Below, piece after piece: positions 25,201 through 64,000 of a stretch of DNA of 64,000 nucleotides. The notes under the pieces are model-generated. The model was given only the letters and a program-made list of their open reading frames with translations. It was not told the DNA's origin and did no database searches. Both the position numbers and the translations under genes were made by a program. The first letter of the stretch is position 1, and every line of letters begins with the position of its first letter. Source of the DNA: Branchiostoma floridae (taxonomy: Eukaryota > Chordata > Leptocardii > Amphioxiformes > Branchiostomatidae); contig NC_049997.1 of assembly GCF_000003815.2 (NCBI RefSeq), positions 11,894,459 to 11,958,458 of the forward strand, in the 5' to 3' direction.

Positions 25201-28200
25201 CATTACAAAATTCATTATGTCCCAATTTGTGTGTGTGTGTGTTTGTGTGTGTGTTTGAATGTTTCTTCAGTGCAGTTTTTGCCAGAGGGCACTTGAGGGA
25301 GTGCGATCTCTGACTGCCTTGTTTCCACAGGTGTTGTGGGAGCCATTGTCCCCTGGAACTTCCCCCTGATGCTGCTGACATGGAAGGTGTGCCCTGCCCT
25401 GGCCATGGGGAACACTGTAGTCCTGAAGCCTGCTACATACACCAGGATGTCTGCACTCATGTTAGCTGAGATCTGCGCTGAAGCTGGGCTCCCTCCTGGT
25501 ATGTATTAGTTAATTGCAGTTAATTGCACAATGGATTACCATGCACTTCTGTTTATTGCACAGAATCCCCAAATTCCGATTGAGTGCTGTTAAGCTGGAT
25601 AACTCTGAATTTTTGAACCACCAGGATAATTGCATGAAATACATTCATTTGGCAAATGGGGTGTGCAATTAAATGGCTTCTACTCACTGGTGTATTAAGA
25701 TGTACATGTACCGGTAGTTGCGTATGAATTATTGTATTCACTCTGTAGAATCCATCTGTCAATGAATGATTTTCTTCTTGATTTACTCATGTTACATTGA
25801 CTTTGACTTTGTTTATGTTTTTCTGTACATAGGGTATACCCTTAAATGAGTTGACATACATACATTATATACATGTCACTTATGATTTTCCATTAAGATG
25901 ACTGTCTTGTTGAAAGTCATGTACACAGTTTCAGTGATACTAAATGTACAAGGAAGGTATCAGCTTTACATCATCATTACTCCACTTGATCTGTTTCATC
26001 TCATATGATACTTGTGTTAGTGTTTAACAATCTACATGACTGTATTGTTTAAAGAAAGTTGCCTCAGTAACAAGACATTATCTTGTACTTGCAGGTGTAT
26101 TTAACGTGGTGACAGGAAACGGCAGGTTTGGGAGTAAACTGGCCTGCCACCCTGATGTGGATAAAGTAGGCTTCACTGGGTCTACAGAGGTATGTCTTGT
26201 AACGTCTTTTGTCTTAAGCCTCAGATTTTCTCTTTAGTCCTAACAGCAGGATACAAAACTAGTGTACTGTGTAGTTTGTCTCCTTTTATTCTGTGCCCGC
26301 AACCCTTGTTTTTGAACTGCTGGTATCCTCCAAATGTTTTTTGTCTCCCCTGTTTTTATTTGTTAGATATTGTGTTGCCCATCATAGCTGATACATAAGA
26401 AACAGTATGCCTAATAATATGGATAACAATATTCCTCTATGTAAGGATATGATATGTTATCCCCTGTCTGTTTGAAGTCTATGAAATGCATGTAGATGTT
26501 AAGTTAACTGTTCTACTGCTCTAACTGTTACACTTATATATTTTGTAGATTAAGTGTTCTTACCCTTGGTGAGTTAATCAAAATGAAGAATCTACAACTT
26601 CAGATTTCAATCACTTCATGATCCAATCAAAGTTTTATTAGATTTTACAAATCATACAAAAAAGAGGTGCTATATTGGTAGAAACTTCTTGTTCTTTGAT
26701 TGGCATGACTATGACAATATTATCACCCAGTCCAGATGTATGCATTGTAATCACTCACCCACTCAGTGAAATATAGTTAGTAGTAGCCGTAGGGGCAGTC
26801 TGTCAGTCCTACTAATCAACTGTAATAGTTTATTCTGTCACGGATAAAGGTGAAGTACAATGTAGCATTTGCTAAGATTTATATAGTGTATTTTTGTAAG
26901 CAACATACATGGAACAGTAACTGTTGATAGAATTTAAACCAAAATTCCCACAGTTTTGTTGACCTTGTTGACCTTCTTTTTTAAGGTAGGACAGTTGCTG
27001 CGCCGTGCAGTGGCTGGTACAGGGAAGAAGCTGTCCCTGGAGCTGGGGGGGAAGTCTCCCTTCGTGGTGTTTGACTCAGCAGACCTGGACAGTGCTGTGG
27101 AGGGGGTGGTGGACGCCATCTGGTTCAACCAGGGGCAGGTGTGCAACATTTAGGATTTCAGTACTATACTACATTACTCATATTCAGCAACTTTGAATTC
27201 AAAATGTTGCAGTCTAGTAAAGCTGTGATTGCATCATTGCATGCCATGTACCTACAAAGCTGGTATGTTGTGCTGAAGTGTGTTTGTACTGGCTATAGGA
27301 TACAGATACAGATTCAGATTTAAATTCAGACAAAAATTATATATTTAACCTTCTCCCTGCTATCTAAGAATGGTGTAACTGATGCAAATAAAAACTGTGA
27401 TAAAAGGCTACTAATACCTTGGTAGGGAGAAAGTTAACTCTCAACTATCAACAGGTGTGCAGTGCAACTTCTTGTCCATGAGTATGTCTTTAATTGAGCT
27501 CAACACCTTCATTTCCAAACAATTTATGATCCACACCAACATTTTAGTCTGTCCCTTACTCGTTACTGAATGCACATCTTTACTTTCTATTCCTAGGTGT
27601 GCAGTGCGGGTTCTCGCCTGCCTGTCCAGGAGATTGTCTTTAATTGAGTTCAACACTTTCATTACCAAACAATTCATGAACAACACTAACATTTTAGTCT
27701 GTCCCTCACTGAATGTACATCAGAGTCTTAACTTTCTATTCCTACATGTACATGTAGGTGTGCAGTGTGGGTTCTCGCCTACTCGTCCTGGATTTTGTCT
27801 TTATTGATTGAGTTCAACACTTGCAATACCAAACAATTCATGATCAACACTAACATTTACTCTGTCCCTCACTGAATGTTTGCCCTAACTTTTCATCCCC
27901 AGGTGTGCAGTGCAGGTTCTCGCCTGCTTGTCCAGGAATCTGTCTTCAACCCCTTCATCACCAAACTGAAGGCGCGCATGAGTCACCTGCGGGTGGGGGA
28001 TAATCTGGACAAGTGTATCGACATGGGGGCTCTGGTGGACGAGACTCAGATGAAGACTATAAAAGAGTATGTGGAGGAGGCCAGGAAAGAAGGGGCAGAG
28101 GTATGTTATTTTGTTGCAAATTTTGAAATGTTTGTAAACTGCGGAAGGATTTCGTTATCAATTTTGTTTGGGGGTAAGACTTGAGTGATTTTTAAAAAAC

Positions 28201-31527: not shown

Positions 31528-33540
31528 TTGTGTGTGTGCGCACACGTGTGCATAGTGTTCAGCACCAATGACAGGTATAGTAACGTGTGTGTGTGTATGT
31601 TTGTGTGTGCCCGCAATGTGTGCATAGTGTTCAGCACCAATGACAGGTATGATAATGTGTGTGTGTTTTCGTGGATAGTGTGGATCTGTGTAATAAGGTT
31701 GTATTGTTCTTCTGGGGGCCTAAGTATGGGGGCCTTGTTCCGGTTATATTGGGTGATATTGTAGAAGACAAATTTGAAATGGGACATCGCACTGTTTAGA
31801 TTGTCATTTTCATGTACATGTACATGTATAACACGTTATGTTTTACCAAATACTCATGAGCAGAATCTCTACCAATAGGAAACCACCTTATATGGAGTCA
31901 CGGCCAAGATCCACGAGCCAATGGGTGTGATCGGCATTGCCTGTCCAGAGGAATACCCTTTGCTGGGGTTCGTGTCACTGTTCGCACCGGCTGTCGTCCG
32001 TGGTAATGCCATGATAGTCGTACCCAGTCAGAAACACCCACTCAGTGCTCTGGATTTCTATCAGGTAATTATAAATAGCCGTTGAATGATGTGAAACTGT
32101 TGGATCAGCTCTTAATGTTATTTCAATTTCCCAACTATATGCCTGGAAACAATTTGTTCGTATAAAATATATGATCCTGAAGACCAAGTCATGTACATGT
32201 ATATTGTCAGGTAAATGCAGCACAATGGCAGTGAATTTGAAGCTGTTTAAGTTGCTAAAACATGACTGTTAAAGTCTGATTTTTTTTCTTTTACATGATT
32301 GTCTGTGTGGATTTTTATTGCAGAATGGCCTTGTCTTTTCCTTTTCCTAAGTTTTTTATTCATTTTCAAATATATATTGATGTGTATTTCTTTCCAGATG
32401 TGTAAATAAAAAACGTTCATGCATTTGTCAAGTTGTCACAGTCTGAATACATCAGATGTGTTGTGCTACAAATACGTGGTAGTCATACAGAACAAAGCTG
32501 TATTTCTCCCCATGAAGTGATTGTAGACCTTGCTGTCTGGCTGTCTACGCCAAAGAGCAGTTACTCAAGCAACTGGATATGATTTGGGAAACGTTTAGAT
32601 GCTTCAGGTAGCGTCCACTACCTTTCAACATAGACCAAAGATGCTACAATGTACCTGAAACATCTGACCGTTTCCAAAATCATATCCAGTTGCTTCAATA
32701 ACAGCTATTCTATGTTTGTTTGTCTTGCCTACCCTGTAAACCAGCTTGTTTGGCATATATTATTACCTGGATGTCTTCATCGACCCATCTGTCTGTCCGT
32801 CCGTCTGCAGGTGTTTGACACATCTGACCTGCCAGGGGGCGTTGTGAACATCCTGACAGGGGACAGGGACCACATCACCAAGTACCTGGTGGAACATCAG
32901 GACATCCAGGCCATGTGGTACTTCGGGTCTGCTGAGGTGAGCTCAAGATAAAGATACATTTGTAGAACCTTCTCACTCCCTCTCTTGCTCAATCATTCAT
33001 TCACTCACACACTGATTCATTCAATCACGCACTCACTCACTCATTTACTAACTCACCCACTTGCTCACTCATTCACTTGATATATTTTCCCAGGCCTAAA
33101 ATGGATATTGATCTGTTTCCAATGCAGAATTACTGCACCTCATTGAGTTTTTAAACTTCTGGACAAAGTTAAACTTGAACTTTCAACACAAAAATTGGAC
33201 TTTCCAAAATTTTTGACTGTTCAAATGGAATGGACAATTCACTGCTTCTGTCACGTCACGTTATGCAGATAGCAAATGTGACTCGGTGAGTAGTGGATCA
33301 TAAGTTGCAGGAAGTCTGTGGCGCTCGCCGTCTCGGTTAATCAAGTTTTTAATCTTGTTTCAATAGGGGTCAAAGTTCGTAGAGTGGACCTCTGCGGAGA
33401 ACCTGAAGCGTACCTGGGTGGATTATGGGATAGCTCGTGACTGGACAGACCCCCAGCAGGGCCAGGGGGAGGAGTTTCTGTACCAGGCAACCCAGGCCAA
33501 GAACATCTGGCTACCAATGGGGGACATCTTTGCAAATTGA
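22224..33540 (+). CDS. ALDH16A1: Aldehyde dehydrogenase family 16 member A1, 17 coding exons, 834 aa
   Basis: Coding exons: 22224-22328, 23464-23566, 24163-24289, 24839-25017, 25331-25498, 26095-26189, 26986-27138, 27903-28100, 28532-28636, 29014-29139, 29286-29402, 29512-29681, 30244-30411, 30902-31106, 31879-32064, 32811-32936, 33367-33540 (TGA). Phases close to 2505 nt. The start MAATTGN lies in a YY1-like AAGATGGC context and leads into [14 protein letters not shown], as in human. The first ALDH domain has every catalytic element: PWNFPL (oxyanion Asn), LKPA (Lys), GFTGSTE, LELGGK (general base Glu), [11 protein letters not shown] (nucleophilic Cys, first codons of exon 8) and EEIFGPV. 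The second, incomplete ALDH-like domain starts near [11 protein letters not shown] and ends in WLPMGD, as in human; it shows no Cys motif. Mammalian ALDH16A1 lacks the catalytic Cys, so this protein may be an active NAD(P)-dependent aldehyde dehydrogenase; that is inferred. Exons 8 and 14 have decayed partial duplicates in adjoining introns. Confidence 0.95.
27455..27902 (+). pseudogene. Three decayed copies of the start of ALDH16A1 exon 8
   Basis: Blocks beginning at 27455, 27597 and 27758 repeat the first 40-70 bp of the real exon at 27903 (GTGTGCAGTGCAGGTTCTCG), with periods of 142, 161 and 145 bp. Each is preceded by an AG acceptor. Each still starts VCS in frame (the second continues AGSRL), then meets a stop (TGA) within about 20 codons. 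They lie in intron 7 and look like a tandem exon-start duplication that has decayed. Confidence 0.85.
31157..31240 (+). pseudogene. Decayed partial duplicate of ALDH16A1 exon 14
   Basis: It repeats the last about 80 bp of exon 14 (CCTGGCTGTACAGAGGCTGT, CCTACTGTGACAAGTA) about 130 bp downstream, including a GTAAGG donor. The final CAG codon is now TAG and there are small deletions. No acceptor precedes it. Confidence 0.85.
31345..31660 (+). repeat. Minisatellite with RE1-like core (ALDH16A1 intron 14)
   Basis: Five units carry TTCAGCACCAAGGACAGG or the T variant (TTCAGCACCAATGACAGG), starting at 31349, 31410, 31467, 31558 and 31630. They are separated by GT-rich microsatellite spacers. The core stays nearly constant while the spacers vary in length. 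Confidence 0.85.
32556..32706. repeat. Fold-back repeat (ALDH16A1 intron 15)
   Basis: Two arms of about 55 bp (AACTGGATATGATTTGGGAA on the left, TTTCCAAAATCATATCCAGT on the right) face each other around a loop of about 41 bp. No coding frame; probably a short inverted-repeat element. Confidence 0.7.
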
Positions 33541-38204: not shown

Positions 38205-39800
38205 CTAAAGGTTTATTGCGTCATTCGAATCAAAGTCAATGGTCACGCGCATGTAGTGGTTAGAGGGCATTGACCTTGCGTCTTGTCCCTGGTCGGACTG
38301 ATCCATTACAGGTTGGGGGTGCAGATATCCCTCACTACTTTTGTTTTCTTGAACAGCAGTTGATGGCTGATCTTTCTGTGCTCGCACATTCTTTTTTTGA
38401 AAAGTTCCAAGAAACTGCTCTTGGCCTTGCTCTTGGCTGTAGTCCCTATCAGGACCGCCCGATGGCGTTTCTGTGGCGTTGATCATTGGAATCATCTCTG
38501 GCATTCGGCTTCCACCTGTCTCGGTGGAATCACCGTTTAAATTTGATCGTCGCCTCTGTCTTTTCCTGCTCTTATTCCTTATACAAAGGAAGAAGAATAT
38601 ACACGTCAAGATCAGCGTAACAACCGAACACCCAACGCCAACAAGAACGACAAGTCCAATGTACTTCGTCTTCATGCAGTTTTTGTCACAGTCATCAGAT
38701 GACACATTTATGAACTTCATCGTTGAGAAGAGCGTTCCTGGCGGAATCTCTGTGAATGACATGGACGTTTGCTCCGATTCAGTGGACGAAACTGAAGTTG
38801 AGACGATGCTGCAGTTGTCTAACATTGGGGTCGAAAACTCTTCAATACTTAGTCCACTGTAGAGTAGAGGGTGTGAACATACTAGGGTGTCCTGAAGACT
38901 GTTTTCTAAACATATCTTCGCATGTAGCAAGTCACAATCGCAGTTCCATGGATTTCCAGAAACATGCATTTCCATAAGGGGAGAAAAGGTCTTGCATGAA
39001 AGTGTTTTGATCATATTTCCGTCCATCCACAGTGAGCGAAGTTCATCCAACTGGTAAAAGCAGTTACTCGGGATGTCGCTGATAGTATTGTAAGATAACT
39101 TCAATGTTTCTGTTTGTACTGGTAAGTCTCTACACGGAACTTCTGTAAAACGGTTGTAAGAAAGGTCCAAATACGAAACCATCAACCCGTCAAAACTATC
39201 ACCCTCCAATGTTGTTAGTTTGTTGTAAGACAGATCAAGATATTTCAGAAGATGTAATCTTAAGAATGCATGTGGCTCGATGTGTTCTAGCTGATTACTA
39301 GCGAGGTTTAGTGAAATCATGCTATCTAGACCTTTAAATGTGTCGTTATTAATGATTGTGAGTTTGTTGTTGTTTAGACGTAGTTGCTTCAACTGGGAAA
39401 TAGTTTCGAAAGCATCTTGTTCAATGTCAATCAGATCATTACCACCCAGAAATAGACTTGTGAGATTCGTCACTCCAACGAAAGTGTTATTTCTTAAAAC
39501 CACTAAGGCGTTGTTCTCAATGTTGAGAAGTTTCAGACTGGAAAGATTTCTTAAAAATCCAAGTGGGATGTCTTGAAGCATGTTACCGCTAAGGTCAAGG
39601 GTGACGGTGACGTCAGGAATACCGTTAATGGCCGTCATGATGTTTTTGAAACTGCAGTCTACTTCGAACTGCATCTCGGGAGTCAGAACACAGGTGCAAA
39701 GTGTGTTGTCACCGCGAAAGCAGGCCGTGTATTGTGCCTCTGTCACGTAAACGTGAAGAAAGCACAGAGCGGTTGCCACCATAACAGAAAAGCTCGACAT
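38205..39800 (-). CDS. Single-pass leucine-rich repeat receptor, single coding exon, 531 aa
   Basis: One uninterrupted reading frame with a complete receptor layout. Signal peptide residues 1-22, then a Cys-rich LRR N-cap (CFRGDNTLCTCV, VDCS). About nine LRRs of the LxxLxLxxNxL type follow (for example LDLSGNMLQDIP, LRLNNNKLTII, YLDLSYNKLTTL). A C-terminal cap starts NPWNCDCDL and is followed by a Ser/Thr stalk. One hydrophobic span (YIGLVVLVGVGCSVV...) precedes a basic stop-transfer RNKSRKRQRRR. The cytosolic tail is about 125 aa, with tyrosines in EGYLHP and NHYMRV and a C-terminal INL that could be a class II PDZ ligand. No TIR or Ig domain is seen. Just upstream of the ATG a pyrimidine tract and CTCTAG (39813-39818) look like an acceptor, so a 5' UTR exon, perhaps ending at the GTAGG donor near 40239, is likely. 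AATAAA overlaps the final codons. Ligand unknown; I cannot name an orthologue. Confidence 0.88.
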   Translation of the reverse strand: MSSFSVMVATALCFLHVYVTEAQYTACFRGDNTLCTCVLTPEMQFEVDCSFKNIMTAINGIPDVTVTLDLSGNMLQDIPLGFLRNLSSLKLLNIENNALVVLRNNTFVGVTNLTSLFLGGNDLIDIEQDAFETISQLKQLRLNNNKLTIINNDTFKGLDSMISLNLASNQLEHIEPHAFLRLHLLKYLDLSYNKLTTLEGDSFDGLMVSYLDLSYNRFTEVPCRDLPVQTETLKLSYNTISDIPSNCFYQLDELRSLWMDGNMIKTLSCKTFSPLMEMHVSGNPWNCDCDLLHAKICLENSLQDTLVCSHPLLYSGLSIEEFSTPMLDNCSIVSTSVSSTESEQTSMSFTEIPPGTLFSTMKFINVSSDDCDKNCMKTKYIGLVVLVGVGCSVVTLILTCIFFFLCIRNKSRKRQRRRSNLNGDSTETGGSRMPEMIPMINATETPSGGPDRDYSQEQGQEQFLGTFQKKNVRAQKDQPSTAVQENKSSEGYLHPQPVMDQSDQGQDARSMPSNHYMRVTIDFDSNDAINL

Positions 39801-40601
39801 CTTTGACGGTTGCTAGAGTCCAAAAGAAAGAAAAAGAAACAAGGTTAAACAAGTTATAGTGTGGGTGTCAAGAACTAGTTGAATATGGCTCCCGCCCACA
39901 CAAATAGCAAAGTAACTGTAGACCTATTCAAACTCTTTGAACCTCAGAATCTGCATACTGTACCACTTTTCAGTTTTCTAATATTTATATAAAAGATTCT
40001 GTCCGTATCAAAATTCATAACGCTTTCCCCTTCGGGAAATAGTGGTTGTACTTTTGCGATTTTCATTAGTGATCGCATTTTTGGTAACTAACTTACCTTT
40101 GTAAACCTTGTGCACAGAAACGTAATGCCTAAACGATATGGGGAGTAGCACAAAATGAACAGTGGCAAATGAACGATCTGTATGTCATGAAGCTTAAACT
40201 AACCGTGTCACCACACTGTACAGAAGGATACAACCTACCTTTCAGATCTTCAAGTTCCAAGGCTGTGAACACTGAGGAATTTATAAACTTTCTCTCAAGA
40301 GAAATAGCGTAACCTCGTTCGTCACTCAGAGGTAAAATGCGTAAGACCAAGGGTGCGGGATATCTTAGAAGAAGGCGAAAGTCCACTTCCTCAATGACGT
40401 AATGTTGTACAAAGTTCATGTGGCATGACCCTTGAAGAGTCAATATCCTCACCCGTTCGCCGTTTCAAACTTGATACTCCAATTGATTGTCAATTGTTTT
40501 TAATTATTTTCGAATTTCTTTGCGCTTTTTTGTGTGCTAAGCTTTTACAATGGGGTTGGCTCTGATATGTTGTGTCACTGTTTGTGGTTTGTTCAACATA
40601 T

Positions 40602-40817: not shown

Positions 40818-42175
40818 ATGTTTATTGCATGTTCATGCCCCAATGGGGCTAAATGCATTAAGTTTGATATAAAGTTAATGACAACAAATAAACAATGATA
40901 TATTCTAATAATAACTATTTTCTACAAGCTTCTTTAGTAAGAACGTTCTCTTGAAGCTCTGGTTTCTACTAGACAAAATACACTTGAAAACGGTTTGTCT
41001 ATAGCTTCACGTAGTTTAACGAGATTACGTCATACAGGCTCAACCCGCACATGTATACACAGTTTTGTACACCTGTTGTTTAACATCATTGACGTTTTCG
41101 AAAACTGTAGGTTAATGTGTTTCTTCTTATTTCTTCACGCCAACGTGTCTTTTCGCGATTTGGATATCAAATTTCGACATCTTCAACCATAACAACGTTT
41201 CTTCTCCTGTCTAATCTTCAAACGAGTTCAACTTTTTCATTTTGGGCCAAATGACCTGACATTTGCCATTGGTACGGAGTGGGCATTAGCTTGTAACATA
41301 TAGTCATCATGTCAAATAGTTTTTATATAGATAGCCCTGTAATATTGCAATTGCCACAGATAGTGCTCGTGTTAGGCTAAACACAGATCATAAACACATA
41401 TCGTCTCCGTATCTTTTGTATTTCCCTGCTTTACGTTGTTTGTACAGCCCAGTACGTAAAAAGATAGTGCGTAAAAAAACTCATTTATCTGTAACAAAAA
41501 CGCACCGTAATCGTTTATGTTGTTTCTATTTCTATGCACTACTGGGCAAAGCCCCTTTTAGGGGCATCCCGCCCAGGTTTACTGTACATTGTTCCAAGGC
41601 TAACCCTTAATGATGGCCTCCGGCTAGTTTGGCTGGTAGTCCTGGCTGTATTTCTTTTTATAAATCAAGCCAAATGAAAGCAAATCAAAACGCCAGGTAA
41701 ATCATTTTCGAACTTGACCTTCCTTTCCACAACAGCTACCCATCTATCAAATATCATGAAGATAAAATCCCGCAGCTTCTTGAGTTATGCTGTTGACATA
41801 CATACAGACCCACACCATAGCCAATACACCATGAACCGATGACATAACCTGCCATAGTGCGTGGGTCAAGGTCGCGTCCAGGGGCATCTAGGGACACCGT
41901 CGAACTGAGCGGGAGGACAACAGTCTAGTTAGCACAATAGAGTATTACAGTATGTAGACTAGGACTGAATGAGTGCGTGTGTGTCGGAGATCCCAGAATG
42001 AAATAGTCTACCCGACTGACTACGCTGGCTATTATTATAGGGAGAATAATTTGGCAGAGTTTTGCTACCAGAGGAGTTGTTCGACCAGAGCTTTAATAGG
42101 GGAAACATGAACCTTGGCGTGGACTGACTCTCCTGGCAAATTTCCCGATTTGGGGCCTGGTGGAGGCTATTAGGA

Positions 42176-45100
42176 ATGAAAGTGCTCGGCTTGCTGATCG
42201 TGTTAGCGGGATGTTTCTGCGGCCGGGACGCACAGTTCCCGCGGGTGTGCACCAGCGATGTCGCCCTGAACAGTAAGGAGTGCTGCCCGGTACCGCCGGG
42301 GTTCACCGAACCGTGCGGCGGAGCTGGTCGGGGACACTGCGCCGACACCCCCGACCCCACCGTGGAAGACCCCGCCTGGAAAAAAGCGTATCACGTGGAT
42401 GACCGGCGCCACTGGCCGACAGTGTTTTTTAACAGAACTTGCTCATGTGAAGGCAACTTCATGGGGTACGACTGCACAAGGTGTATCTGGGGATACCGTG
42501 GGGCCAACTGCGAAACAAAACAACAGCCAGGTGTCCGTAGAAACATCAAGGACATAAGTTCTGAAGAGAAAAACAAGTACCAGTGCTACTTTAACCGCGC
42601 CAAGAATACTCCAAGTGACTTCGTCTTCGCTCTGGAATTTAAAGAAAACATCAGGGGAAGTGAAGACCTCGCCAACATCTCAGTGTATGACTTCTTAGTG
42701 GCGACGCATTACTACGCCAGCCGTGAAACCATGCCGCCCTTCAACACAGGTAACGGAGCATTTCTAAAATGTCGTCCGATTGTTCAAAACGCGTGTCCTT
42801 AAATCGCGGACAGAGTTAAATATTTAACCCGTAAAGAGTCATGTGAGGAAAGATCACTGGTCTTTTACTATGAACAATGCAAGGTCTGTAACCCATACCT
42901 TAACCCAGTTCTTCAGTACAGACTACAGTATATCATCACTCGGCGTTAAACAGACGGAGAACAAGCTGTGAGTCCGACTCAAATGAACGACCATATATAT
43001 ACTATAATAGCATTGTCGTTCGCTTGGTATGCTCACATCATCATGCATGTTAGTGCAGCCCACATCAAAACATAGAAACGGCAAAATTTTCCACGTAAGT
43101 GGCCAAAGTAGTCTACAAATCAAGAACAATTCATAGAATTCTCGATCGTGTAGTTTTGAAAACGGGAATGAAATACGGTGTTTCGATGTGCATATACTTA
43201 CACGTCATTACCTTCGCCAGACGGTTATGTTTGGTGATATTCACAGAGTACTTTAATACTATCACAAGATGTTCATTAAATGTCATACTCCCCAAGCAGA
43301 GATTAGGCTCTGGTTAGTTTTTGGAGACAGGTGCGAGGGGTAGTCAATAAGTTCTCGGCCTCACCCAGAAATATTTGGCACAACCAAGGAGGTTAAAGAA
43401 TCACTTTAACCTCCTTGGCACAACTCAGATTTCGAAGCATAGATGTCAAATATAAAGTCTTGATATGTCATAAAATGAATGTGTGCCAAAAATCAAATTA
43501 TTGTGATCATCACTTTACAGGCCACACCTAGTAACGGTAAGTAAGAGAGAAGGACAGAACCATAGAGCTGCGACCTGAGGTGTGCGGGTCAACTTGCGCA
43601 TGCGCTGCTGAAATGCAGACACCCAATCCTTTCTACTTGAAATAGGAAGGGAATCCTCATCTAATATTTTGACAATGTCTTCAATTTTGACAATGCGCGA
43701 GCAGAAGACATGAGGAAAATGTTCGCGGTGGTTTTTAGTTCGCGGTAAAGCTGCCACCGCGAACATAAAATCACCGCGAAAGTTTCTGTATTTACAAAAA
43801 TACATTTTTTTCATGCGATGTTAACAATACAGTCACGGACATTGCTTTTGTACAAAATACCTGTTACTTTGTTATCCAGGTATCTGTCAGGATGAGGACG
43901 ACTGTACCCTGGACTTCGCGCATGATGGCTCGGGGTTTCTCACCTGGCACCGCGCGTACGTGCTGGAGGTTGAGCGGGCCCTACAGGAGGTCAACGGCGA
44001 CCCGGACTGGACCATGCCGTACTGGGACTGGGGCGCCGCGGAGAAGAACCAGTGCGACATCTGCACCAACGAGTACGTCGGCGCTAACAACAAGCACGGT
44101 GACATAGACACGGGGTCTCTCTTCGCTAGCTGGCGGACGATCTGCGAAGATCTAGACCCGTCCGACAATGCCACCTACATGAACCACACCAGACCGTGCA
44201 ATGTGACCAATGCCAGTGGGAAGCTGAAGAGGAACCCCGGCCACGCGGACACGAGAAGACTCGGGGAGGCAATAACTCACCTGCCGCTAGCGACTGAGGT
44301 AGACTTTGCCCTCAGCTTCCCCGTGTACGACACGCCCCCTTACAGCTCAGCATCGAACTGCAGCTTTCGGAACTTATTGGAAGGGAACGCCGACACCAGT
44401 ACCGGCAAGACTAGGAGAGAAATGTGAGCAGAATGCTCCCCAATTTTTATCGGCATAAAGTTTAAATGGGTACTCCATTTTGTGGGTGGGCGCTTACATC
44501 TGCTCGGAGTTTATAGGCAGAAGACGCAGGCCATGTTATGACTGTTCGTTCTGCGTTCAGCTAGTATATAACTAGTAGTAGTATCCATTATTTTATCATA
44601 CTGCTGCTGGGTTCCCTGACACAGAGTTAGGAACAATCTGTTAGTCTTCACATCGCGCTGCTGCCATGCCTCTGTCCAGCTTATCACCAAGCAGATCCTA
44701 CATACATGGCATAAAATAGTACCAAACTGGTCAAGGAGTGTATTCAGCCCAAAGTTGTCCATTTGCCTTGTTAACATTTTCCCGGTAGCGAAACACACTC
44801 CTAAGCCGGCTTCACTCCTCTGACAGCTTTTGATACTGTGTTATGCTACCGTAGGATCTGCTTCGAGATTACTGTCAAGCTGGTTTATGCAGATATCGCT
44901 CAGCTTTGATTATCCCCCCATGCACAGAATCTCCGCCAACGGCACGGTGCTGGTCCCCGAAGCTATCACCCTGCACGACGAAGTGCATATATACCTGAAC
45001 GGCACGATGTCTAACGTCCCCACCGCACCGAACGACCCCATGTTCTTCCTGCATCACTGTAACGTCGACCGCTTGCTGGAGACGTGGATACGCCGACACG

Positions 45101-47425: not shown

Positions 47426-57240
<9,815 letters not shown>

Positions 57241-58740: not shown

Positions 58741-60648
58741 CTATACATTTTGCACTAGGTTCATGTCTATAGGGTTAACTCTCCTAGATTTCCTCCAACT
58801 CTTGATGAGATGAAGGATTTTCTTCCATATGGCATGCCAGTGATCTGTGCCTTTAGGTGTATCGTCTGTGGGACACACTGTAACTACATCACTCTTGTCA
58901 GGTGTGCTGGTCGCCTGCACGTCTTCCTCCTTCCGCAAGAGGCCGTCGCTGTAAGGTCCGTTGTTGATCTCAACTGTTTTCTCGACCATCGTTACAAGTT
59001 TCCACAGCTGTGTTCTTCGTAGCGTCTCGTCCTTTGTCTTGTTGTCGAAGAAGACACATCTTGTGCCACATTCCTTGAGCACGTCCAGGAATTCGCGGGG
59101 TGCTGTCTTGAGGTAGTCTTGCTTGTTTCTCACCCTTTCATCCGCGTCTATCACATCCATACCAGTGACTACCATGACTGAACACTGAAGAAATCTCTCA
59201 CCAAAAACGTGTCTCAAAAGATCTACTGCTAAGGCATCCTCCTTTGTGAATCTAGTATGGTTTACTACAAACAATAGTGCATGTAACCCGTTTGGGAACA
59301 TTGTTGCTACCTGAGTAAGAATAGTTGCGGTGTGCTCATCATTGTTTCCAGTGTCTAGTATCCCCGGTGTGTCTACAACAGAGATCTTACGGTCTCCCTT
59401 GTCTCTTGTGAAAAACAAGCAGTGTTTCGTTTCTGACGATAGGCCGCATGACACTGCAGAGGCAGCGTATCCGAGGATGCTGTTTGCTGTACTGCTTTTG
59501 CCAGCTCCGGTTTTCCCTATCAGGGCAATTCTAAGCTCCACACCTAGCGGAATGTGACATCTTGGGGACAGGTCGTTGTGCGTGTACGTTGAACCGTTTT
59601 TCTCGGTCAGTTTCAAAGACACGTCGATCAGTTTAGATGTTTGACGCAGTGCAGTTTCTTGGTCATATGCGTTGCTCATTAACAGAACTCGGCCCTGACT
59701 ATGCTGTGCGATTTCTTTCATGCACTCTGGCAGCTCTTCTAAAATTTCAGACTTTGACATCGTGACATCGTCTGCACCTGTTATCACTATGACAAGGCGA
59801 CTGAGGAAGCCATTGCCAAGCAAGCGATGCAGGGACTTGAACACACTACACTCTCTTTCTTCGTTGTCATACGATTTTATGTAAGACCAAGTCAAGATTA
59901 TGGCATCCAGACCGTGGAGAGAAAATTCGACGCCATTTACAACTTCGTGAAACTCCGTTTCTGTCATCTCCTTCGATATCCCCGGTGTGTCTATGACTGT
60001 CATTTCCCAGAAACCGTCCCCGATTCGGCGATGAAGACACTTCCCTTTGGCTGTCTTGGTGCCTTCTCTAGGGTTTCGTCTGACACGGAATGCTCCTTTA
60101 TGTCCAATGAGAACGTTTGACAGCTCACTTTTCCCATTTCCTGAGCAACCAACGACTAGCAAGCTGACTGGCTGAGGGGTGACTGTAGCATCTTCCAGTA
60201 AGTGACATGCTTCAAAACGGCTTTGTAAAGTTTTAGAAAGTTGCGATGTAGAAGCAGATGTGTTTGACGGGGTGCTTCTAAAAGTCGCGGCCTCTGAAAG
60301 CGGCCATGTGTTTGATTTAGTTTGGTTGGATGACTGCCCTGCACCATCCACTTCTGCTTCGCTGTTTGCCAAACCTTCCTCCAGCGCCGAATCAATCTCT
60401 TCTGCCAGAGAAGAATTCGCCCTTCTCAGAGCTCTATGGAATGACTTCATGGCTGTTGTTCCGCGTGTTAGGATATAATCTAGAAAGTCTGTTGCCGGTT
60501 CATGATGGGTGCTTTGTGATGGGATCCTTGGGTACTCGGCAGTGTCAATGAAATCCTTTTCAACTAATTGTTCAAGTACCCTGTTTATTGAGGACTTCCT
60601 TGGGTTTTTTTTTAGCACTGTTCTCCTTGAATTTAGGGCTTTTGACAT
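58741..60648 (-). CDS. CARD-AIG1-AIG1 (tandem GIMAP-type GTPase) protein, single coding exon, 635 aa
   Basis: One open frame. Residues about 10-90 look like a CARD: helix-rich, with VLEQLVEKDFIDTAEYPRI and DFLDYILTRGTTAMKSFHRAL matching the CARD pattern. A Ser/Thr-rich linker follows. The first AIG1 G domain has G1 GCSGNGKS (167-174), G3 DTPG (220-223) and G4 TGAD (290-293); its conserved box is diverged (LTWSYIKSYDNEE). The second has G1 GKTGAGKS (378-385), G3 DTPG (426-429), a normal AIG1 box (LLFVVNHTRFTKED) and G4 TGMD (495-498). The C-terminus is basic without a clear membrane anchor. GIMAPs are septin-like GTPases involved in lymphocyte survival and immunity; CARDs mediate death-fold assembly. 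A role in innate immune signalling is inferred. ATG 60648 begins just before the CARD; the frame stays open a few codons further upstream, so an extra 5' exon is possible. An AATAAA lies about 220 bp past the stop. Confidence 0.85.
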   Translation of the reverse strand: MSKALNSRRTVLKKNPRKSSINRVLEQLVEKDFIDTAEYPRIPSQSTHHEPATDFLDYILTRGTTAMKSFHRALRRANSSLAEEIDSALEEGLANSEAEVDGAGQSSNQTKSNTWPLSEAATFRSTPSNTSASTSQLSKTLQSRFEACHLLEDATVTPQPVSLLVVGCSGNGKSELSNVLIGHKGAFRVRRNPREGTKTAKGKCLHRRIGDGFWEMTVIDTPGISKEMTETEFHEVVNGVEFSLHGLDAIILTWSYIKSYDNEERECSVFKSLHRLLGNGFLSRLVIVITGADDVTMSKSEILEELPECMKEIAQHSQGRVLLMSNAYDQETALRQTSKLIDVSLKLTEKNGSTYTHNDLSPRCHIPLGVELRIALIGKTGAGKSSTANSILGYAASAVSCGLSSETKHCLFFTRDKGDRKISVVDTPGILDTGNNDEHTATILTQVATMFPNGLHALLFVVNHTRFTKEDALAVDLLRHVFGERFLQCSVMVVTGMDVIDADERVRNKQDYLKTAPREFLDVLKECGTRCVFFDNKTKDETLRRTQLWKLVTMVEKTVEINNGPYSDGLLRKEEDVQATSTPDKSDVVTVCPTDDTPKGTDHWHAIWKKILHLIKSWRKSRRVNPIDMNLVQNV

Positions 60649-62502
60649 CTCCAGGGCTCCACTCCTGTAGTTTTTTTTTGGGTAATGGGGTGGACACTTT
60701 TCTTTAACAGTGTTCCCTTAAGAAAAATCAACCGTCATTGGTTAAACAAGTCGGTAATACTTCAACATGAAGCCTCTCTAGATTTTAGTTTTTAGGGTCC
60801 CATGCCACTTGGGGTTTCACCCCCCCCCCCCCCCCCACACACACACACCGGATAACCACACCACACCACCCACACCCATAACCTCCACACCCCCAAGTCC
60901 ACCAAACAAGCGATGGATTTCGTATGACCTTATAGATCTATATACAATGAAAACTTTTACTTTCAAATTCAGCCGTTTGATTGATTGATTGATTTAGACT
61001 AGTACAAGGCTACAAATGACAAGGTTCAGATGTTGACAGACCTGTAGGTTCGGTCTGTAAGCGTTTAAAATGTCTATCACAAATGTTGGCAACCGTAGCT
61101 ACAATCTTGATTTACAACCATACTCTCTTTCAAACAATTGCACAACATTTAACTGATCGCTTGGGATATTTGGCCTGCTTACCTTACGGTCAGAGGTTAG
61201 TGCAGCAGTGGCTGACTGTGGGAATTCCCTGAACGTTACTCAGCAAAATTATTGTATTTTTTAGTCTATTCATTAAGATCCACAATGAGAATCTTCAGGG
61301 GCCATTTTATCAATAACTGTTAATCTTGGCAATGTTTGTAAAAATGTGACCAATATATTTCAGCATTTAAGATTTTGCAATTTTACACTTACGTTGGGTG
61401 GCACTAGAAAGGCAAACACAGAGGCAAACTCTGGCAAACGCCGATAGATGCCCGCTCAGCAACAAGCCTTTATATGTCCCGAAACAACTTTTCATTGTAA
61501 CGGTGTTTCATACACTAACAACAATTGGCTATGGTGAATGAAATCTAGTATTGACAATAGTAAAAGAAGAAGTATCTTACCCAACAATCACTTTAAACGC
61601 TTCGTCCTTGCAAAGAACCTGGCCGGTTCCAGCTATGACTCACAGCCAAATGACACTGTGTACACTAAGAACTATGCCGTTTGAGCACCGGTGGGTTGAC
61701 CTTTGTCCACACACGGACAGGTACATTGCAAAGGTAGCATGTGCTGCAACGTTTTGATTAGAAACCTTTATCATCTTCCTAGTTTATAATCAAGACATAA
61801 ACCCTGAGAAAGATTAGTTGAAGAACGTTATAAGCTAGAAAAGCGTTACTTTCCACTCGCACAGTTTCGTAACTGTTAGCAGATCGATGATGAAGTGCAG
61901 GCTACCTTTGCAGTGTAGCTTACTTGGAAATCCCTATTGTGGGCACGTGATTGTTTCGGGGGTCAAAAAGTCGAGACGGCTATATTAGGGCATATTGACT
62001 GCTTTATTTACTACATAGAACATTTTCCTCTTTTTCGAATCGGTGCATACCTCAGTTTCTATACCCCTTGGTCCACACAGGGCCCATAAAGTAGGAGCTA
62101 GTCTGTTAAAGCGTTAAGGTTTAGGGCGGGTTTCAAACAGATTTTCTGAATTAAGATCAGCTTGTTTTAGAACAGCGAATAGTTCAGGCAAATTGATTTG
62201 GACAAAACACAACTTGCACATCATTGTACTTCAGTATCTACCATCTTGTATTCAGAATGAAACATTGAAAACATGACAGTGAAAATGAATTCAAGTATGT
62301 ACATCTTTCTTTTTATCATATTAGCTATCATGAATAAAAAAATGCTATGTACATGAGCAACAAAAATCACACCAAACAGGCCCTTTACAAGTCCATGTCT
62401 CTGAACTACTTCGCAAGGCCAAGGTTAACTTTACTAAAACGCAAGCTTAACCCTATCGTTTCTTTCTTAGCCATCTTCCTTATAATGGATTTTGGTTCAG
62501 TT
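60649..62502. other. Intergenic region between the two AIG1 genes
   Basis: It holds the presumed promoter of the CARD-AIG1-AIG1 gene and the 3' UTR of its partial neighbour. A C-run followed by CACA repeats sits at 60820-60848. No coding potential is seen. Confidence 0.5.
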
Positions 62503-64000
62503 TCAGCTGACAGGAACCACCGAGTTTCTCTTTCTACGCTTCCTAAGCTTCCTACGAATTGTTCGCCACAACTTTGTCAATCTTAGGTTTGACAATGCAG
62601 CAATATGCCTAACCCTCTCCTCTGTAATGTCAGTGACATTGTGTCCATGAACTGTTTCTTCAGATTGTCTGACGGACAGAGACGAAGCACTGGCTCCAAC
62701 GCACGGATCATCTAGTGACTCCTGACTTTGCATTATGTCCGAATCATGCGACTGGTTTTCAACCAGACTGACAGTTGTTTGGTTTCTTACAGACGCCAAA
62801 TGTTCAGCGAATGTTTCGTCAACATATTCAGTTGCAGCTCCCGGTAAACCCCCTTCTTCAGAGAGACTCTCATTGTGGAATGACATTGAAGAGATACTTC
62901 TGACTCGAAGTCCTGGGAAGGACCTGGCTCTGGTAGAGAGTGGTGGGGGTTGCTTCGGTCGAGTTTGTTGCAATGGAGAGAGGGAACCTGGCGGTAAGAT
63001 AATCACTTCGAGGTCTTCTGAGTGAGACCTCTCACCTGCGAAGTGGAATGACGTTAAGCTGTTACTAGTGACTGGCAGTTTGGAGGTGGACTTGGCTTTA
63101 GTGGACAGCTTTGAACGTGCTTCAATGTTTCCTGCCACAGCCTTTCCTTCCCTGAAGTGGTCATCAATGTAGGGCCCTTCGTTCTTTTCAACAAGACCAT
63201 CGATCATTCTGATGAGCTTTGCAAGCTGCATCCGTTGGATAGTCTCATCTCGGGTTTTGTTGTTGAAGAAAACAACTCTATGTTTGCAGAGTTTCAGCAC
63301 CTCCTGTAGGCCCGGTGGAGCATTACGAAGATAGGTTTTAACATCGCCCCTCATCTTAATGTCTGCATCTATATCATCTTTACCCGTGATGACAATGATA
63401 GTATATTCATGCAACAGCCTGTCTCCGAAGACTGCCCTTAGGCACTGAACAGCGTCCTTGTCTTCTTGTGTGAACCTCTGTCTTCCGCTGATCACGAGTA
63501 ACATTGAATGAAGTCCCTCGATGTGATATGTCGCAGCTATCCTGGATAGCTGATCTACAAGTCTATCTTTGTCACCGACTCCCGTGTCGGTATGCATGAC
63601 GCCGGGTGAATCCAATACTGCCACTTTACGTGGTTGCTCCCTTCTGTGGTAAGGACAATCAGGCGTTTCGGAAGCAGCTGAGCAGGAGAAGGTGAATTTC
63701 TCACAGCCTATGATACTGTTACCTGTACTGCTCTTACCAACACCAGTTTTCCCCATCAGTGCCAGTCGGAGCTCGCCTCCCTCAGGAATGATGCAGTTGG
63801 GGGACAAATCTAACACACTGTGCCTGTGCCTATTCCCCTTAGACAGACTGTAGGCGATATTGCAAAGTTCCTCTCTACTCTGTTGTACGCCCTCCAAAGG
63901 ATCGTTTTCAAAAGTTACTAATCTACCTGAACACTTTTCTTCTATTTCCCTTAGTGGTTCCGGCAAGTCTTCAATGTAGTCTTCCACTGATACAAGACGG
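62503..64000 (-). CDS. AIG1/GIMAP-type GTPase, partial (5' end beyond window)
   Basis: The frame is open to the window edge with no ATG at the front (the first plausible start would be a GTG at 63987), so this is the C-terminal part of a longer protein. The first about 50 residues (VEDYIEDLPEPLREIEEKCSGRLVTF) align with the end of the first G domain of the neighbouring gene (LEELPECMKEIAQHSQGRVLL), so it probably also has two AIG1 domains. The complete domain has G1 GKTGVGKSSTGNS, G3 DSPG in place of DTPG, the AIG1 box (LLVISGRQRFTQED) and G4 TGKDD. A Pro/Ser-rich region (ILPPGSLSPLQQ, PKQPPPL) and a strongly basic C-terminus (RKLRKRRKRNS) follow. Same strand and head to tail with the CARD-AIG1-AIG1 gene: a tandem duplicate. 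Whether it carries a CARD cannot be seen. Confidence 0.85.
   Translation of the reverse strand, partial: RLVSVEDYIEDLPEPLREIEEKCSGRLVTFENDPLEGVQQSREELCNIAYSLSKGNRHRHSVLDLSPNCIIPEGGELRLALMGKTGVGKSSTGNSIIGCEKFTFSCSAASETPDCPYHRREQPRKVAVLDSPGVMHTDTGVGDKDRLVDQLSRIAATYHIEGLHSMLLVISGRQRFTQEDKDAVQCLRAVFGDRLLHEYTIIVITGKDDIDADIKMRGDVKTYLRNAPPGLQEVLKLCKHRVVFFNNKTRDETIQRMQLAKLIRMIDGLVEKNEGPYIDDHFREGKAVAGNIEARSKLSTKAKSTSKLPVTSNSLTSFHFAGERSHSEDLEVIILPPGSLSPLQQTRPKQPPPLSTRARSFPGLRVRSISSMSFHNESLSEEGGLPGAATEYVDETFAEHLASVRNQTTVSLVENQSHDSDIMQSQESLDDPCVGASASSLSVRQSEETVHGHNVTDITEERVRHIAALSNLRLTKLWRTIRRKLRKRRKRNSVVPVS

Follow-up and report, generated by a model that had tools for sequence, protein, structure and literature searches.

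The closest described relatives of the gene analysed here come from lancelets and from a snail. A 2025 study (PLoS Genet, PMC12373286) describes an N-terminal CARD, and two or three AIG1 domains, in proteins of lancelets; the parts of that paper considered here propose a link between GIMAPs and apoptosis in lancelets and state that among animals amphioxus alone has such architectures, and the exact CARD-AIG1-AIG1 string follows from its text as read. In Biomphalaria glabrata, the protein Bg8770 combines a DD-CARD with an AIG1 domain and a coiled coil, according to the consulted portions of a 2020 study (BMC Genomics, PMC7053062) in which the coiled coil is the criterion that separates 'GIMAP' from 'AIG'. 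As far as these portions go, the two papers disagree somewhat, since the claim of an amphioxus-unique architecture stands against the earlier snail combination of DD-CARD and AIG1. The CARD-AIG1-AIG1 architecture of the Branchiostoma floridae locus is real and already known, making the locus a well-placed example and not a discovery, and the word 'unrecognised' in the preliminary description of this DNA was overstated in the light of what both texts, in the parts considered, report. The present analysis adds that the CARD-bearing genes of this genome appear to form a single lineage and that the penultimate AIG1 domain is atypical family-wide.

The gene occupies a single uninterrupted minus-strand frame of 635 aa (Table 1) in the window, the whole 64-kb stretch of DNA under analysis (C19:11894459-11958458), and the coordinates first assigned to it prove exact. 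The surrounding stop-to-stop frame spans 58741-60717. Given the local base composition, 635 stop-free codons have a chance probability of ~1e-15 for a given stretch, which rules out a chance open frame for 58741-60648. Comparison with a tandem paralogue reveals differences at the third position in 204 of 280 aligned codons, against 117 at the first and 93 at the second, a third-position excess that is the pattern expected of coding sequence; moreover, different codons are used at 80 of the 120 residues that the two proteins share. A CTACAG acceptor-like site 16 bases upstream of the ATG at 60648 is the feature that speaks for an annotation artefact, in which the CARD and the G domains would come from separate transcripts and share a long frame by coincidence. 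Splicing at this site would keep the CARD, because the site lies upstream of it. The length of the stop-free frame and the recurrence of this one-frame domain order in two other genes count against the artefact, which we regard as extremely improbable. An earlier worry, that another 5' exon might replace the CARD, is accordingly weakened at the level of sequence by the one-frame arrangement in three genes, without being closed.

Table 1. Features of the CARD-AIG1-AIG1 locus in window coordinates, with strand and basis of assignment
Feature	Coordinates	Strand	Basis
CARD-AIG1-AIG1 coding frame	58741..60648	-	ATG at 60648, stop ends at 58741; no intron needed
CARD, residues 11-85	60394..60618	-	PF00619; four-paralogue CARD profile against solved structures
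Ser/Thr-rich linker, residues 96-155	60184..60363	-	Composition, 33% S+T
First AIG1 G domain, diverged	59569..60165	-	Pfam PF04548, 86.1 bits
Second AIG1 G domain, canonical	58915..59535	-	Pfam PF04548, 161.5 bits
C-terminal basic helix, ~residues 602-621	58786..58845	-	Low-confidence model; tail composition
Tandem paralogue, cut by window edge	62503..63999	-	42% identity over 289 aa

Several other features share the window. Tyrosinase gene pieces are present at 42128-44427 on the plus strand; among solved structures, the Cys-rich N-terminal piece matches TYRP1 entries only, and a second piece matches hemocyanin (3.9e-31) just ahead of TYRP1 (1.8e-30), which makes the gene a partial clue to a lancelet host. 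A single-frame leucine-rich-repeat protein of 535 codons (38205-39812, minus strand; Pfam LRR_8) shows, by eye, a transmembrane-like stretch after its repeats. Aldehyde dehydrogenase exons lie at 27876-28184 and 32634-32951 on the plus strand, and their reverse profile order (266-336, then 166-218) suggests two tandem genes. On the minus strand, a Ser/Thr-rich, mucin-like frame of 486 codons (53251-54711) matches nothing in Pfam at E <= 0.001. Neither Rfam nor a tRNA scan gives a hit in the 64-kb window, a promoter and terminator scan yields about what shuffled sequence is expected to give under a bacterial model that is not apt for this genome, and a search of the prokaryote and virus contig collections found no relative of the locus.

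The N-terminal segment is recognised by PF00619 at 36.2 bits (E 6.2e-9; cut-off 23.9) when presented as a separate piece, a score that qualifies it as a CARD, and at 32.1 bits (E 1.2e-7) within the whole protein. With HMMER filters on, none of ten shuffled versions of residues 1-110 gives a CARD match at E <= 10; Death, DED and PYD are absent at E <= 10 from the matches to 21 Pfam families, under filters that drop most matches above ~0.1. Against solved structures, the segment alone gives weak matches to 8 sequences (E 0.14-0.99), the best of them a de novo designed protein, followed by CED-3, cIAP1 and Apaf-1. A profile of the four CARDs linked to GIMAP genes in this genome matches 42 PDB sequences at E <= 0.01, a strength that comes partly from the three paralogues. 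Specifically, 40 of these are chains of cIAP1, ICEBERG, ASC, RAIDD, CED-3, Apaf-1, NLRC4, BCL10, caspase-1, RIPK2 and NOD1, which carry CARDs, and the remaining two are one designed protein and one QRICH1. The cut-off score, the shuffles and the four-CARD profile together rule out a chance CARD match. AlphaFold2 returns low-confidence models both for residues 1-110 without relatives (mean pLDDT 59.6) and for the full length with one paralogue, as two rows (mean pLDDT 42.1); the former draws residues 51-102 as an improbable single helix of 52 residues, unlike a CARD, at a confidence too low to weigh.

Beyond the CARD, a probably flexible linker leads into the G domains, both of which exceed the PF04548 cut-off of 27 bits, the first covering profile positions 2-197 and the second positions 1-205 of 212. 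The first domain carries a P-loop (GCSGNGKS), DTPG and TGADD, and lacks the R(F/Y)T box; G1, G3 and a G4 acid are kept and the conserved box is diverged. Lys258 stands opposite the Arg of GIMAP7 in a pairwise alignment, and the family alignment places an Asp in that column. In the second domain the full set of motifs is present, namely GKTGAGKS, DTPG, TGMD and an HTRFTKED box with Arg466. Its best solved relatives are GIMAP7 (E 1.6e-29) and GIMAP4 (E 5.2e-27), and it shares the box Arg with the five aligned human GIMAPs (7, 4, 1, 5 and 2), which have Asp or Glu at G4. The preliminary description had placed a CARD ahead of two GIMAP-type G domains and had called the first of them diverged; the Pfam scores over cut-off for the CARD and for both AIG1 domains bear out the former statement, and the absent R(F/Y)T box the latter.

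Other models respond to the nucleotide-binding character of the protein. The general GTPase models MMR_HSR1, RsgA, Septin and Dynamin_N in Pfam overlap the AIG1 domains over their own cut-offs, with lower scores. Among the best 25 of 33 NCBIfam families, which are mostly P-loop GTPases and ABC transporters, none exceeds its cut-off for the 635-aa protein, and PADLOC gives it 6 weak to moderate P-loop matches, the best to LeoA (E 3.1e-10). The last 40 residues have a pI of 10.5, and the putative basic helix within them might contact a membrane or a partner; the best hydrophobic moment of the tail ranks only 19th of 618 windows in this protein, and in the in-window part of the neighbouring gene the C-terminal helix window ranks best of 481.

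A search of the genome (513,431,437 bases, 431 contigs) yields 30 stretches matching PF04548 and 149 matching PF00619; a Pfam scan covered 15 frames with AIG1 and one with a CARD, and five further neighbouring frames scanned in the same way hold no AIG1 domain. In control genomes, the AIG1 profile finds matches in 12 of 14, over the cut-off in 7, so that weak PF04548 matches can be other GTPases, and the CARD profile finds matches in none of the 14. The tandem paralogue lies 1.85 kb upstream on the same strand and continues beyond the window, where its first ATG would fall at window position 65196; its whole frame (L017:4964-7681) encodes a protein of 897 aa in which a CARD (E 2.8e-11) is followed by two AIG1 domains, and the two genes, judged from their sequences, are tandem copies. 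A third CARD-AIG1-AIG1 protein in one frame, of 1017 codons, is L019 on contig C9. At L021, three AIG1 stretches follow a CARD (E 3.5e-12) that sits in a separate frame at least 2.5 kb upstream; the 624-codon length of that CARD frame is inflated by two runs of N inside it, and the two frames are likely parts of the same gene. Seven frames (L018 and L023-L028) hold a pair of AIG1 domains and no CARD, and one AIG1 domain each is found in L022 and in two L029 frames. Since CARDs may sit in separate exons, the CARD genes counted here are a minimum.

Some AIG1 loci show additional features. At L020:1266-3176 (minus strand), AIG1 is combined with a Hint module (Pfam 83.1 bits), which is the second partner domain described in lancelet proteins. 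Broken AIG1 pieces at C19:15251121-15252216, one with two stops, are probably a decaying copy, and two open single-AIG1 frames lie ~9 kb away. Reverse transcriptase frames adjoin AIG1 genes at L019:6136-8730 (minus strand) and at L026:4044-5453 (plus strand), the latter weak and under the cut-off, and a link to presence/absence variation is possible.

The AIG1 tree covers 26 of the 30 stretches, which score 78.5-201.4 bits, and omits a partial domain (L021_d1), the two fragments at C19:15251121-15252216 and one fragment at C236; for L021, the middle domain is counted as the first. Within this genome, a single branch separates the 11 first domains from the rest (100/99), and the same holds for the 11 last domains (97/95) and for the four single domains (98/92). 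This separation of first, last and single domains indicates that the double-domain form probably predates the multiplication of the genes. The last domains of the present gene, its neighbour, L018, L019 and L021 group together (93/94), and four of these five genes have or adjoin a CARD.

The CARDs give a corresponding picture in a tree of 65 of the 149 stretches, comprising the four linked CARDs, the C236 CARD and 60 others picked for near-full coverage from across the list. The four linked CARDs group (92/78) and do so in 94% of 200 bootstrap trees, a support that falls short of the strict threshold and comes from a bootstrap that had not settled. An AIG1 fragment lies 2.5 kb from the C236 CARD, which clusters with unlinked CARDs (100/95) and is not counted as linked. 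By BLAST among the 65, the best match of the neighbour's CARD is an unlinked one (52.4 versus 52.0 bits), and the other three linked CARDs each have a linked one as their best. A one-off fusion is ruled out by the further CARD-AIG1 genes together with the grouping in the CARD tree. Collectively, the CARD-bearing GIMAP genes look like a small inherited lineage, and a single CARD-AIG1 fusion would be the simplest reading of their history, short of proof.

The state of the CARD in this particular gene is less uniform with its relatives. Its identity to the other three linked CARDs is 23, 27 and 27%, which makes it the least alike of the four, and its score is the lowest but one among them, so the partner surface of this CARD may be lost. 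Its identity of 22-27% to the four others compared and its long branch in the 65-CARD tree (1.49 changes per column) would fit a vestigial CARD that has drifted in this gene, leaving the GTPase part to work alone as in the CARD-less paralogues, and the seven two-AIG1 frames without an in-frame CARD, among them L018, which falls in the last-domain group of the present gene, point the same way. However, the CARD remains over its curated cut-off, the frame is kept, and ten residues are invariant in the four linked CARDs (L5, L25, D32, I34, I42, A66, S69, F70, L74 and E90); we consider a vestige quite improbable.

Divergence of the first G domain extends across the family, as revealed by an alignment of 27 AIG1 domains used for the G4 and box counts. 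The G4 column holds Asp in all 15 last and single domains, whereas the acid is missing from it in 10 of the 11 first domains, the exception being the TGADD of the present gene; two of the ten (L026 and L027) have Glu one column later, and the omitted partial domain of L021 has Glu in the G4 column. No first domain carries R(F/Y)T, and L025 alone is noted without the P-loop lysine. In that gene (L025:1902-3467, minus strand) the lysine is replaced (GCKGNGNS), and its first domain probably binds nucleotide poorly. The box Arg of GIMAP7, R103, is catalytic. In the corresponding column, last domains have Arg in nine and Lys in two of 11 cases, and seven of the 11 first domains (L019 and L023-L028) have Arg followed by other residues, so a general 'loss of catalytic arginine' in first domains is rejected; the four without Arg there are those of the present gene, its neighbour, L018 and L021.

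These patterns suggest that the atypical first domain would be regulatory, with a milder change in the present gene, which is the first branch of the first-domain clade in the midpoint-rooted tree. A bolder conjecture, which we rate as unlikely, is that, while the genes multiplied, the penultimate domain turned into a dedicated module that switches poorly. Each chain would then contain its own heterodimer, which pairs a degenerate G domain with a working one and presents the CARD. If true, this would amount to a GTP-gated, NLR-like platform built from AIG1 GTPases, with the present gene nearest to the starting state.

The reading to which we give about an even chance is that this protein is a CARD-AIG1-AIG1 GIMAP, one of at least three such genes plus a fourth CARD adjoining a three-AIG1 frame, in which GTP drives the clustering of CARDs. 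The second G domain would bind GTP and dimerise or oligomerise by analogy with human GIMAP2 and GIMAP7, the first would serve as a regulatory or scaffolding module, and the assembly of G domains would gather the N-terminal CARDs, which could then seed a CARD assembly together with a caspase or adaptor that has a CARD of its own. A membrane tether may be provided by the basic C-terminal helix, and the assembly would be reset once the second domain hydrolyses GTP. In the consulted parts of a review, dimers of human GIMAP2 are GTP-dependent, GIMAP7 promotes GIMAP2 hydrolysis and membrane scaffolds are proposed (PMC8201404). For amphioxus, the portions considered of another paper allow caspases a DD, DED or CARD prodomain and state that NLR-like proteins may trigger apoptosis directly and not via an ASC-like hub (PMC2575513). 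Nucleotide-driven assembly coupled to CARD signalling would be the most natural mechanism.

The CARD might instead act as a brake or decoy, with the protein capping or sequestering CARD proteins and restraining cell death, a serious rival albeit a somewhat unlikely one. ICEBERG caps or sequesters caspase-1 in this manner, and it is among the best matches of the four-CARD profile (E 5.3e-7), a match that says little beyond both being CARDs. A restraining role agrees with the way in which vertebrate GIMAPs favour survival; the consulted part of the review suggests that GTP-bound GIMAP5 scaffolds inhibit apoptosis (PMC8201404), and, apart from the GTPases, no enzymatic effector domain turns up in the Pfam scan. 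The two G domains that follow the CARD, however, point to regulated assembly. GTP-driven CARD clustering would directly connect death-fold signalling with the GIMAPs, a family examined chiefly for its part in lymphocyte survival, and the suspected link between GIMAPs and apoptosis would become testable in an invertebrate chordate.

Compared with human GIMAP7 and GIMAP4, the second G domain shares the P-loop, DTPG and the R(F/Y)T-box Arg; those proteins have one G domain and are not known to carry a CARD. CARD-bearing NLRs and Apaf-1 combine a CARD with a STAND ATPase and with LRR or WD40 repeats. The likeness to them consists in a CARD beside a nucleotide-dependent oligomerising domain and is a works-like analogy only, for the present protein has AIG1 GTPases and no sensor domain was found in it. 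An NLR or inflammasome sensor is rejected, as the whole-protein Pfam scan with HMMER filters on detects no NACHT, NB-ARC or sensor repeat; the same scan shows no sensing domain, which leaves the earlier label of 'sensor' unsupported. Vertebrate GIMAP8 likewise carries several G domains per chain, three in its case, and the examined text of PMC4201521 mentions no CARD for it; the main text of the vertebrate GIMAP review (PMC8201404) contains no occurrence of CARD. In a comparison with the considered text on the lancelet CARD-AIG1 GIMAPs (PMC12373286), no difference from the present gene was found, and the G4 change of first domains is absent from that text. With Biomphalaria Bg8770, as described in the consulted part of its source, the likeness is the placement of a CARD before AIG1, whereas Bg8770 has one AIG1 domain and coiled coils; because its host is a mollusc, Bg8770 possibly represents an independent fusion.
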